Below, one piece after another: positions 3,394-9,300 of a stretch of 64,000 bases of DNA. The stretch comes from Perkinsus marinus ATCC 50983 (lineage: Eukaryota > Perkinsozoa > Perkinsida > Perkinsidae). The stretch lies in the NCBI RefSeq assembly GCF_000006405.1, contig NW_003216689.1, forward strand, positions 32,110 through 96,109, given 5' to 3'. The notes under the pieces are model-generated. The model made no database searches. It saw nothing but the letters and a program-made list of their open reading frames with translations, and had not been told where the DNA came from. The position numbers and the translations under genes are program-made. The number at the start of each line of letters is the position of its first letter. The first letter of the stretch is position 1.

Positions 3394-4462
3394 TTACTTA
3401 TCATCCTTCTCTTCTCCAGGTGATGTGGGGAATGGATCGTATACATACTGAGTAACGTATTCAGATGGTGCTGGTGATGGTGATCGGGAGTTATTACCTT
3501 TCGTACTAACATATATACTGCAGATGAGGCTAAGGCTAGATTAACCATTGCCAGATTAATATTTATTGGAGTAATGACAAAAGACCAACGACACCATATT
3601 GCACCTATTATTATTAATCTTATTAACATGTATTATTAATATTATTATCACCTGTAGCTAGTAATGATAATTGTTGTGGTATACTTACTGAATGTACTGG
3701 CCTCTTATAATCTAATAGATTAGCAGCACTAAGACCCCATTTACATGTTGGTGCCCAGAAGAATATGGTAAATGGTCCTGCTGGATGTTTAAGAAATGCT
3801 CGACATTTCAATGGCATAGGTAAAGCTGTTATACGTGCTTGTAGACGGGGAACTATACCAATACCACCTAATACAGTAACCATCATCATCTACTACTATA
3901 AACTATTTCCATAATACTATTACCAGCAACAGCAGCAGCAGCACACATTATACCATTCTTCTTGTTATCATCCTTATAAACTATCTCTTGTTGTTGTCCT
4001 TCTTGTTGTTGTTGTTGTTGTTGTCTATCATATTGTAGACGTCTATACAGCTGTATCGATTGTACTCCCTAATGAAGGTAGTAGTAGTGGTATTATAGAT
4101 GTATCATTATTATGTGTTATTACCTCATTAAATACATGACATGAGAATAATAGATAATTCCTAGGTCTTATCATCCATGCAAACCTCATAAACATAGCAG
4201 AATATACACATAATGTAGCAGTCATTGGTAAGGATATATATTCAGGACCCTTAGTAGTAAGATCAGTAATACCAGCTAATGCTATACTCCAATTAGCAAC
4301 TGGACCCCAAAAATGTGTAGTCTTCCAACCAATCTGATAAAACATACTAGATATTGTTGCTGTCTACAATAACAACATCTTCATAGTTACATTAGGATCT
4401 AAGAATGCATCTTTACCACTCTTTAACAATAGGCGAGCTTTAGGTATTATAATTGATGACAT
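3394..4462 (-). CDS. MPC1-MPC2 fusion, mitochondrial pyruvate carrier, tandem copy B
   Basis: Single-chain version of the heteromeric inner-membrane pyruvate carrier. ATG at 4462; the first exon ends in DAFLDPN, and an MPC1 domain follows (about 4055-4335) with [29 protein letters not shown] and [13 protein letters not shown] linker rich in Gln and Ala (about 3935-4075) leads in frame into an MPC2 domain (about 3510-3860) with [30 protein letters not shown] and [15 protein letters not shown] short last exon begins VYDPFPT and stops at 3394-3396. Introns fall after the MPC1 Asn-Glu (phase 0), at the linker end (phase 1), after LLATG (phase 1) and before VYDPFPT, the same places and phases as in copy A. 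In known eukaryotes MPC1 and MPC2 are separate genes of about 110-130 residues. Lies 335 bases downstream of copy A on the same strand. Confidence 0.88.
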
Positions 4463-4797
4463 TATAATAATAATAATGCTCAAGAAACATACCATATAAT
4501 GACAACACAACATAATAGTGTGAAGTAGTAGGATATGAACAGTTACAACAACACTGTTGTAACAATGATTACACCCAACTAGTTACTACTACTACTACCA
4601 AGTAATTCCAATGCAATAGGTGTGAATGGTAGTAGTAGTAGCAATACTAGGGATACCAGGAACAACGAGAGTCAATCATCAACAGCTACTACACAATTGT
4701 TGTTGAGTGGTAATAATACTATTACCAGAACGATCATGATGACGATGTGAATGATAATACTCAGGAATAACACGACATCATTACTACTATAAGGAGT
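4463..4797. other. Spacer between the two MPC fusion genes
   Basis: AT-rich, with short ACT/AAC runs. No open frame or structured element was seen. It presumably holds the 3' end of copy A and the promoter of copy B. Confidence 0.5.
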
Positions 4798-6084
4798 CTA
4801 CAAGGACGTAGTAGTAACAGTCGTCTTCTTGACATCATCATCATTAGTAGTAGGGAAGGGATCGTATACCAACTAAATAGTATTATTGTTGTAGTAGGAC
4901 GACGATATTACGAGTATTATTATTACCTTTCTTATCAAATGATAGAATGCTGTAGAGGCTAGACACACGTTAACAGTTGCTAAATTGTAGTTAATTGGTG
5001 TGATAACAAATGACCAACGAGCCCAGATAACACCTAAGATAATGATTATCATTCCACTAAGGATTGTTAGTATTATTACCAGTGGCGAATAGAGCAAGCT
5101 GTTGAGGGATACTAACCTTTTCAACAGGTCTCTTATAATCAACTAAGTTGGCAGCAGATATACCCCATTTGATAGCAGGAGCCCAGAAGAATATGGTAAA
5201 GGGTCCAGCAGGATGCATAAAGAATTTCCTTAATAATTCAGGCATAGGTAAAGCACATATCTTAGATCTCAATTTTAGGACGGGATGGAACGAACCTAAT
5301 TAATAATAAACTCCTATACTCATTATCTATTACCCTCAATAGCAGCTTTAGTAGCAGCTTGAGCTGTCTTAGCAGCAGGAGTACTAGCAGCAGCAGACTT
5401 GACAACAGTCTCAGCAGCAGCAGCAGTGGTAGATGAAGCTGCTGTTGTAGTGGTGGCCGCCTTAGAGGCGATGTCGCTAGCAGCCTTAGCAGCAGCAACA
5501 CCAGCAGCAGATACAGCAAACATGGACTTGCTGCTCGATGATGATGTCATAGATGGTGTTGTTATACTACTATTAGGAGATGCCTCCTTGGCAATAATAC
5601 TAGTAGTAGTCGATTTCATAGCAGTAATCTGTTGTCTACGCTGATCTGCTACAAGCTTGTGTTGACTCTGGTACTTGAGAGCACGACCAAGTTGGATAAG
5701 TTGGACACCCTGAATAGTTATGATAAAGTATAATAATAATAATATAGTATTATTACCTCATTAAAGATATGACAGGATAACAATAGATAATTCCTAGGTT
5801 GTACCATATATGCAAAACGCATGAATAATAGAGAATAAACACATAAAGTACCAGTCATAGGTATAGATATCATATCAGGCCCTTGAGTAGTCATATCCAA
5901 TACACCAGCAGCAACAATACCCCAATTAGCCATAGGACCCCAGAAATGGGTAGTTTTCCAACCCATCTAACAACATACAATAACAACAACAATGAACAGC
6001 TATTACTACTAGTACTACCTTAGGATCCAGGATGGCTGCCTTACCCTTTAGTAGTAATTGACGGACAGTAGTAGAAGCTATCAT
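4798..6084 (-). CDS. MPC1-MPC2 fusion, mitochondrial pyruvate carrier, tandem copy A
   Basis: Same architecture as copy B. ATG at 6084; the first exon ends in AAILDPK, then MPC1 (about 5755-5965) with [31 protein letters not shown] and [15 protein letters not shown]. The next exon continues [14 protein letters not shown], the usual MPC1 tail, and runs without a stop into an Ala/Ser/Thr-rich linker of roughly 80 residues (about 5338-5640). A 38-base phase-1 intron leads to MPC2: [43 protein letters not shown] and [15 protein letters not shown], then a final exon starting LVYDPFPT and stopping at 4798-4800. The MPC1 tail, normally the protein's C-terminus, has been joined to the MPC2 N-terminus. 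The linker differs completely from copy B's, so the duplicates are not recent, or the linkers evolve fast. Confidence 0.9.
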
Positions 6085-6317: not shown

Positions 6318-9300
6318 ATGTCGACGGCTGAAGATCAGACCGATAATATTGTTCATGATGATGATGATGTTAAGGATAATGGAGGAGTAGGCTTATCATC
6401 ATTTAACGATGAAGGTAATATAGTATGTGTTACTAGCTTTCAAGTATCATTATTAGTAGATAATAAAAGAGATAATAATACAACTACACACAAGGAAGAT
6501 CATGTAATATATAATATACTTATTCTTGTTAATATTATTAGCTTTAGCAACAGCATGATGATGAGGATGGTATGGAGAATGCGGTAAAGTCAGCAGCATC
6601 CCCACCTAGTATGGATAATCCTGATTTACAAGCTATAGTTAATAAGGTGATATACTCATCTCGATCTTGACATAATAGTGATATCCTTATTGGTAGGTAT
6701 GGCCAGCATTGATGAAAGAGGTAGAAAAGAGGAGTACTAGTATGGAACAGGTATGAACAAGTGAAGGTTGATCATCATCATCATAATGGTGTAGGATCTT
6801 ATTAAACGACATAATATTAGGATGATGAATGAGATGCAAGAGGTTGTTAGACAGATTAAGATAGCTAAAGTCCGTAATGATGAGGTACTATTAGTAGTAG
6901 TCTTATCATACTCTAGTAGTAATGATACCACTTCTTAGGTCCTTAGAGCCTATCATGCTAAACATGGTGAGCTTACACGTGCTGTTACTGATGTTGTTGA
7001 GAAACAGCAGAGTATGAACAATGATATAGAGGATGTAAAGAGGAAGATGGCACAATTGAAACAAGAGTTGACATTGAGATGTGGGCAGAATACTGAGCAA
7101 TTAGCTCAACTTAAACATACTGTATTTACAGCTTGGCAAAAGGAGAAATCTGATGTCCAACAAAGGTAATTATTATAATAGTATTAATCATCGTTTATTG
7201 TTGCTTATCACTGGTGTTCATACTTTTCTCTTCCTCCTCAGAGTTACTCAACTATATCGTAGTGATCTAGCTCTTGTTCTACAACAATGTGAGATGAAGT
7301 TAAAGGAGAATCACTCCCAGGTATCATCATTACTTAGATATATTCATCCATCTTAATCCATTACTAGGTTATTGGTTTGAAGAAGCAACTTCGTAAGTTA
7401 ACGGCTAAGGTAGAAGGCAACAATGATGATGATGAAGAGGAGGAAGATGTGGTAAGCATATGATGTTGCCATATTGTTGTTATTATTATTACTACCAGGC
7501 AACAGAAGATGATGAGATGATGGCATCATCATCGTTTGATCTTACTAAGATTCTACATGATTCTAAAGTAGATGATGACCATACTCAACCTACTGAGAGC
7601 AAGCAACAACAACAACAAGCATCTACAGTACTACCAGTAATAGTGATGTATATGTATATAGATTCATGTTAGGTTACTCCATCATCTGGCGTTACAACCA
7701 CAACACCAAACCAACAACAACAACCTACTACTAATACTGCCACTACCAGTACTCAGCAGTTATTACAACAACAGATCACAGCTGCTCAACATCAGGTTAT
7801 ATACATAACAACAACAACAACATCATCATCATCATCATTTCAATACCGTTATTGTTGTTATTCAGGCAACAGCGTTCGCTGGCCAGAGTCAGCAACGGCC
7901 TGGTACTCAGTCATCATCATCTTCTCCAGCACCATCATCAGTTAGTGGTATGTCTAATATATCCAAGTCTATTGCTGAGGTCTTAAGTAGAAGTAATAGT
8001 AGTACTCATATGGTTGTAATAATGGTAGTATTATTGTTATTATTATTTAGGTAGTAATCCAGCTGCTACCCAATCGGGTATAGCTCAATTGATGGCTAAT
8101 CTACCAAGACAACAACAGATACAATTACAGTTACTGGTACAACAGCAACAACAGGCTCGTCAACAACAGCAGGCTGCTCAGTTAGCTGCTACTACTACTA
8201 ATACTGCAGCAGCAGCAGCAGCAGCACATCAACAACAACAACAGGTATATATCATCATTAACACTAATGATAGTAGTATAAGTAAGCATTCAGGCAGCAA
8301 GAACGGCGGCTCAAGCTGCTTCTGCTTCTGCTGCTGCTGCACATCAAGAAGGGAAGACCCAACAAGCTACTGGTCAGGAATGGGGTGGTATGATACAAGG
8401 TAATCGTAACATATAGTATAATAATGATGATGACTAAGTATTCAGCTTTGGCAAACAAGTTGGGAACTCAAGTACCTATCCAACAACAACAACAAGGTAA
8501 GCGTATAAAACCAAGTTTTAATCATTATTATTATTATTCTACAGGATCTACACCGACTCCAACACCATCTCCCTCGACTACTACTCAAGTAACTAATGCT
8601 CTACCATCATCATCATCAGCTACTACTACTAATACGCCCTGCCCATTCTTCACTACCTTTGGTTGGTGTAAGTTTGGGGATAAGTGCAGGTAATAGTAGT
8701 CTTAATTATCATCATTATCACATTGTTGATGATGATGTTGATCATGATGATTACTCTTAGATATGTACATACCTCTACTGGAAGGGAACCACTTCGTCAT
8801 CTACCTCCAGCTATGATAGCACAATTACAACAACAACTATCAGCTCAGGTTGGTGATGATTATGATCGTGATGCTTATGATAATGATGATGATGGTCGTA
8901 GGTCCAATCTGGTCAGATAACAGGTTCTGTTGGTCTTACTCAAGCTATTGCAGCATCAGCTAGACAGGGAGCTCAGCATGCCGCTGCTCAAGCTGCTGCA
9001 CAGGCTGCACAACAACAACAACGTCACACTCCCACTGCCACTCCCCCACCACCATCTTCAATTGATCAGCATGGGGCTAGACCTCAGGTTATAATGAGTC
9101 TCATACTTATTCAGTCTATCACTACTACTACTATTAGGTATCTACTACAAGTACTCCCTTGTCATCAGCAGCCTCAGCAACAACAACAAGAAGTGGCGGC
9201 CCCACTAATCAACAGAGTCTGATGGCTGCTCAGATAGCTTGTCAACAAGAGGCGATGGCTATGGGTCGAGCTAAGGCCAAGACATTGCCATGCAAGTTCC

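Follow-up and report, generated by a model that had tools for sequence, protein, structure and literature searches.

At positions 3394-6084 of a 64,000-nucleotide stretch of the Perkinsus marinus ATCC 50983 genome (contig NW_003216689.1, positions 32,110 to 96,109; hereafter the window), predicted splicing yields two complete genes of six exons each, lying side by side on the minus strand and each joining an MPC1-type to an MPC2-type subunit of the mitochondrial pyruvate carrier (MPC) in a single frame. We refer to them as gene A (6084-4798) and gene B (4462-3394), and their exons and linker introns are listed in Table 1. Five introns occupy corresponding positions in the two genes, with phases 0,0,1,1,0; intron 2, in phase 0, follows the MPC1 Asn-Glu, and the intron in the linker between the two halves is in phase 1. 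Exons 2, 4 and 5 are equal in length between A and B, and the linker introns share the pattern G/GTAATAG...TTAG/GT. A first-pass annotation of the window had described two tandem genes, each with a full MPC1 and a full MPC2 domain in one frame and with conserved intron positions and phases, all of which holds for the spliced frames; it had also called the linker introns, which are predicted in phase 1 but which it placed at 5305-5345 and 3840-3890, off the predicted positions of 5333-5296 and 3923-3868. A pseudogene or a haplotype copy is ruled out by the intact frames of both genes and by the divergence of exon 2 (nonsynonymous, dN, 0.21; synonymous, dS, 0.83, the dS being that of exon 2 and not of exons 4 and 5). 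The two genes are clearly diverged paralogues, likely with orthologues in other Perkinsus species, and as tandem duplicates they probably predate the split of the sampled Perkinsus species.

Table 1. Genes A and B with their exons and linker introns (positions in the window)
Feature	Position	Strand	Description	Basis
Gene A, fused MPC1-MPC2	4798..6084	-	six exons, 349 aa plus stop	spliced frame, two PF03650 stretches, human MPC1/MPC2 matches
A exon 1	6084-6019	-		spliced reading frame
A exon 2	5757..5966	-	MPC1-half core, 210 nt	PF03650 and human MPC1 matches
A exon 3	5334..5709	-	MPC1-half end and most of Ala-rich linker	spliced frame; exon 3/4 junction same in P. marinus P0026
A linker intron	5296..5333	-	38 nt, phase 1, in-frame stops inside	site-matrix ranks
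A exon 4	5080..5295	-	linker end and first part of MPC2 half, 216 nt	spliced frame and genome search matches
A exon 5	4927..5033	-	later MPC2-half part, 107 nt	spliced frame and genome search matches
A exon 6	4872-4798	-		spliced reading frame
Gene B, fused MPC1-MPC2	3394..4462	-	six exons, 267 aa plus stop	spliced frame, two PF03650 stretches, P. olseni match
B exon 1	4462-4391	-		spliced reading frame
B exon 2	4124..4333	-	MPC1-half core, 210 nt	spliced frame and genome search matches
B exon 3	3924..4068	-	MPC1-half end and linker with hydrophobic segment	equivalent linker of P. olseni P0001 is a predicted helix
B linker intron	3868..3923	-	56 nt, phase 1	site-matrix ranks
B exon 4	3652..3867	-	linker end and first part of MPC2 half, 216 nt	spliced frame and genome search matches
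B exon 5	3498..3604	-	later MPC2-half part, 107 nt	spliced frame and genome search matches
B exon 6	3447-3394	-		spliced reading frame

The linker introns were scored with a splice-site matrix built from the eight non-linker introns of A and B, whose own high ranks are uninformative. On this matrix each linker intron pairs one strong site with one weak one: in gene A the acceptor ranks 2 of 69 AG sites and the donor 7 of 81 GT sites, and in gene B the donor ranks 4 of 68 GT sites and the acceptor 10 of 68 AG sites.

The Pfam family MPC (PF03650) matches two stretches in each protein, scoring 222.4 and 223.7 bits where the curated cut-off is 27, far beyond chance; it is the only family matched in either protein at an E-value of 0.001, a search in which the SWEET domain was not found. 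The first half of the gene A protein matches human MPC1 chains in the Protein Data Bank (PDB) and the second half human MPC2 chains. Structural work on the human MPC1L/MPC2 pair places MPC1L H86 and MPC2 K49 at the bottom of the transport cavity and describes two cis-prolines (PMC12007569). The equivalents of human MPC1 H84, MPC2 K49 and N100 and of the cis-prolines are kept in both A and B, and across 122 proteins (A, B and the 120 relatives described below) the histidine is present in 120, the MPC1 proline in 121, the lysine in 122 and the MPC2 proline in 121. Asn100 of MPC2, which we take to be a transport-path residue, is kept in 121, the remainder at all of these positions being alignment gaps. 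The asparagine of the MPC1 motif HFWGPVAN is Asn in 118, Lys in one and a gap in three.

In the predicted model of P0001, the Perkinsus olseni orthologue of gene B, the linker forms a helix (residues 111-134; predicted local distance difference test, pLDDT, about 64, 84 and 97 by block), so that one extra helix stands between the halves, in keeping with the first-pass expectation that the linker must respect their helix topology. Predicted models of the orthologues match the folds of SWEET transporters, cystinosin and the KDEL receptor, with which they share a seven-helix 3+1+3 plan; the resemblance to SWEET is one of fold only, at about 10% identity in the structural match and with PF03650 alone among Pfam families. 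The two halves must share one orientation in the membrane, which requires a single crossing by the linker. The linker helix of gene B, hydrophobic and built of small residues, probably makes this crossing, giving the 3+1+3 plan of SWEET transporters, and would return the chain across the membrane so that the halves lie parallel as in SWEET. The gene A linker is longer and Ala-rich, and a crossing helix in it is uncertain on the modelled structure. As a separate observation, the linkers of 113 proteins carry a mean net charge of about +1.65 in the 12 residues after their most hydrophobic stretch and of -0.31 in the 10 residues before it; by the positive-inside rule the MPC2 half would then begin on the matrix side, with an amphipathic helix at that place as a confounder. 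Such a placement is contrary to the orientation argued in PMC12007569 and agrees with the older yeast Mpc3 labelling cited there.

We consider it very likely that the product of each gene, A and B, is a single-chain mitochondrial pyruvate carrier whose chain folds into an MPC1/MPC2-like pair and which arose by the joining of an MPC1-type and an MPC2-type protein. This reading follows from the intact spliced frames, the matching introns, the completeness of both halves, the retention of the transport residues and the fact that no separate MPC gene was found. The chain would consist of an MPC1 half with three membrane helices, the linker and an MPC2 half with three more, and would fold on itself into the pseudo-symmetric pair formed elsewhere by separate MPC1 and MPC2, the N-half contributing the histidine and the C-half the lysine and, presumably, the asparagine. 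From knowledge of the family we infer the mRNA structure of the two genes and the location of their products in the inner mitochondrial membrane, where the chain would carry pyruvate with a proton by alternating access. For the genome search, the 54.46 Mb assembly (347 contigs) was translated in six frames and examined exon by exon, with only the best candidates scored. The MPC family profile gave six exon matches genome-wide, every one in gene A or B, and fragments of human MPC1 and MPC2, at E-values up to 10, gave 2 and 5 matches confined to the same two genes. No separate MPC1 or MPC2 gene was found in this six-frame search, which an unfused gene split into very small exons could escape; the intact separate genes that the first-pass annotation had named as the finding that would speak against a single chain are thus not seen within its reach.

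The last 115 residues of the gene A protein are identical to those of the P. marinus model P0242 (115/115), and a partial P. marinus model, P0026, agrees with it at 260 of 293 positions and has the same exon 3/exon 4 junction, both halves being identical over the aligned length and the differences being confined to the linker. The gene B protein aligns over 88% of its length to a P. olseni protein, with 82% identity. The fused MPC is found in other Perkinsus models as well. The gene A linker (exon 3, 5334-5709) differs from that of P0026 by substitutions and indels and reads as a fast-changing Ala/Thr/Ser-rich spacer beside fixed domains. In several Perkinsus entries (P0242, P0081, P0098 and P0052) the public gene model breaks up or truncates the fused MPC.

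A search with the gene B protein, limited to candidates between 0.55 and 1.75 times as long, gave 278 relatives, of which 120 were examined. The order MPC1-linker-MPC2 is found in 118 of the 120 (120 of 122 with A and B), the two exceptions being the P. chesapeaki models P0081 and P0098, and the reverse order, MPC2-MPC1, is found in none of the 122. Linker length has a median of 56 residues (n=118) and falls between 40 and 75 in 111 of the 118. All 18 relatives whose source names show transcriptomes, chosen from the 120, have both halves in a single open reading frame (ORF). Named sources among the 118 are Perkinsus olseni, P. marinus, Amoebophrya, Amorphochlora, Hondaea, Aplanochytrium, Mucochytrium, Ectocarpus, Aureoumbra and Diplonema, and three more, Bigelowiella (Bigna1), Hemistasia (Hpha) and Partenskyella (a truncated name), were read from tags only; in the NCBI taxonomy Perkinsus and Amoebophrya are alveolates, Amorphochlora is a rhizarian, Hondaea a stramenopile and Diplonema a member of Discoba. 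The fused MPC is present in several distant protist groups (alveolates, chlorarachniophytes, stramenopiles and diplonemids), and a distribution across alveolates, Rhizaria, stramenopiles and diplonemids points to a common protist form and not an oddity.

The fused MPC1-MPC2 architecture is already known. It had been taken at first pass for undescribed, which is not borne out, since it has been published for diatoms (PMC5124317, 2016) and as the MPC with seven transmembrane segments (7-TMS MPC; PMC7176098, 2020). The former annotates a fused MPC gene in Cyclotella cryptica (g13004.t1) that, like the genes reported here, has MPC1 and MPC2 in one gene; the evidence there is a gene annotation, whereas here it comprises introns, a tandem pair, relatives, trees and a structure model. 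The latter describes 7-TMS MPC proteins of 3+1+3 topology (example C5K6B0, TC 2.A.105.1.8), an MPC1-like half followed by a central helix and an MPC2-like half, and prefers an origin by duplication while holding that fusion is not excludable. Our proteins share this plan, with both half types in one polypeptide by the spliced gene model and a central helix, for gene B, by prediction on the orthologue, but the trees presented below favour fusion. PMC7699257 relays the 3+1+3 topology from PMC7176098 without speaking of fusion in the passages considered, and natural fusion is absent from the considered text of PMC12007569 and PMC10909473. Separate proteins form the pair in human (MPC1L/MPC2 and MPC1/MPC2) and in Toxoplasma (MPC1 and MPC2) (PMC12007569, PMC10100952); each half of our proteins matches its subunit of this two-protein carrier in sequence and fold, with the transport residues kept, the difference being that a single chain is predicted here. 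In the openly licensed literature we found no report of the spread or phylogeny of the fused MPC or of the Perkinsus tandem pair. Accessions that begin with C5K are presumably those of P. marinus, so that C5K6B0 may be gene A or gene B.

Several points weigh against the single-chain reading. The splice sites of A and B are inferred from sequence alone; the linker donor of gene A scores 2.2, against 13.9 to 18.6 for its four other donors (which are matrix-training sites), and several non-sites outscore the linker acceptor of gene B. The linker helix of P0001 starts at a pLDDT of about 64, and the linker of P0026, the gene A orthologue, lies at block pLDDT 35-73. Among public models, P0242 of P. 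marinus is MPC2 alone, identical to the end of gene A (window 4798-5245) and starting at the Met of MPELL, 10 residues before HPAGP, while in P. chesapeaki the MPC1 half is cut in P0081 and mostly missing in P0098, and the P. olseni model P0052 is truncated in its MPC2 half; we tentatively read these partial models as annotation faults. The trees, finally, rest on 80 to 87 columns.

A rival reading makes each locus two genes, with spliced-leader processing of one precursor giving an MPC1 mRNA that ends in the linker and an MPC2 mRNA that starts at or near the linker acceptor. Translation of MPC2 would then begin at the MPELL Met in gene A and, in gene B, at a Met lying either within the linker intron or past it. 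Spliced-leader trans-splicing is reported for Perkinsus (PMC9399869), P0242 begins at the MPELL Met, the gene A linker acceptor is a strong one, retention of the linker intron would bring both MPC1 frames to a stop, and in gene B an ATG run within that intron continues in frame, with no stop, into the MPC2 half (ORF 3889-3623). However, the stretch from the acceptor to the first MPC2 Met has the same length in both genes and, translated, resembles the linker ends of relatives, the first ATG past the gene A linker acceptor is not in frame, and fused single ORFs are found in all the transcriptome-named relatives as well as in other Perkinsus models. We give this arrangement only a small chance of being correct; trans-splicing into two mRNAs is possible but unlikely, and is the main open risk for the single-chain reading. 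Four separate genes (MPC1, MPC2, MPC1, MPC2) were dropped as the principal interpretation on the equal length of exon 4 from a matching acceptor and on the fused relatives, and are kept as a rival. A narrower alternative, which we think rather unlikely, leaves gene B as a working single-chain carrier and has the gene A linker not crossing the membrane, with the A protein acting in a larger assembly, being cut after synthesis or doing another job. The low model confidence of the A-type linker, the Lys and Asp within its most hydrophobic 19-residue stretch and its fast change while the halves stay fixed all point that way, and are to be set beside the transport residues that gene A keeps.

The origin of the fused protein was examined with trees of a hand-picked sample of 45 fused proteins (43 of the 118, A and B) and of the stand-alone rows nearest to Perkinsus, namely 28 drawn from 120 listed relatives for the MPC1 half and 19 drawn from 37 for the MPC2 half, each set with the human protein; a 100-row tree held 26 fused proteins (52 halves), 29 MPC1 and 19 MPC2, with the stand-alone row P0270 dropped. 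In the 100-row tree the N-halves and stand-alone MPC1 stand opposite the C-halves and stand-alone MPC2 (support 100/100), and a constraint uniting all fused halves in one clade is rejected (p-AU, the p-value of the approximately unbiased test, 0.00176). This rejects a duplication confined to the fused proteins and, with each half grouping with its own type, favours fusion. The N-halves lie on one side of a branch in the 45-protein tree (Shimodaira-Hasegawa-like approximate likelihood ratio test, SH-aLRT, 99) and, against stand-alone MPC1, in a later tree (89/89); in the 100-row tree they need two changes, and the one-sided group there is stand-alone MPC1 (92/98). The C-halves need three changes in the 45-protein tree and two in another tree in which P0270 fell among them; their union in one clade is not rejected in the tree that includes P0270 (p-AU 0.361), and they form one clade at 92/92 in the 100-row tree, from which it was left out. 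A recent fusion private to Perkinsus is argued against by the p-AU of 0.008 for grouping seven alveolate fused N-halves (Perkinsus, Amoebophrya) with three stand-alone alveolate MPC1 rows (Vitrella, coccidian), one of the seven (P0041, a transcriptome row whose species name is not visible) having been added after an earlier tree was seen.

That the seven-helix protein came from duplication within one MPC gene, with the halves diverging afterwards, instead of from MPC1 and MPC2 joining, seems to us highly improbable. The authors of PMC7176098 prefer a four-helix precursor, and the same domain occupies both halves; opposed to this are the 100/100 grouping of each half with its stand-alone counterpart and the rejection of a single clade of fused halves. 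Intragenic duplication is largely refuted if it was private to the fused proteins, and an older form, before the split of MPC1 from MPC2 and followed by fission, may apply. By these sequence comparisons, the joining appears to have involved MPC1 and MPC2 types that were already distinct and was not private to Perkinsus, and the fused protein type was most likely joined once, long ago. A single origin fits the tree results without being shown, gain and loss not being separable, and gene transfer or fission may be alternatives to one old fusion. We tentatively suggest, as a possibility that we rate below even, that the single-chain MPCs make up one deep branch, of a single origin close to the early eukaryote splits, which persisted in scattered lineages (Perkinsus, Amoebophrya, chlorarachniophytes, some stramenopiles and diplonemids) while their relatives kept two genes; in the boldest form of this idea the fused chain may have come first and the two-gene carrier by later fission. 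If true, a deep single-chain branch would be a mitochondrial repeat of the step from SemiSWEET to SWEET, in which two three-helix units are joined through one added helix.

The MPC has been studied as a pair of separate proteins, and its stoichiometry and membrane orientation have been disputed. A natural one-chain carrier would fix a 1:1 pairing and, if its linker crosses the membrane once, its halves must lie parallel, so that the question of orientation becomes testable on one protein; structural work would gain a covalently joined form of a pair whose purification is difficult. Elsewhere in the window, on the plus strand at 8394-8693, an open frame with a match to the CCCH zinc finger (PF00642, 23.3 bits against a cut-off of 20.5) sits in a Gln-rich region at about 7673-9222.
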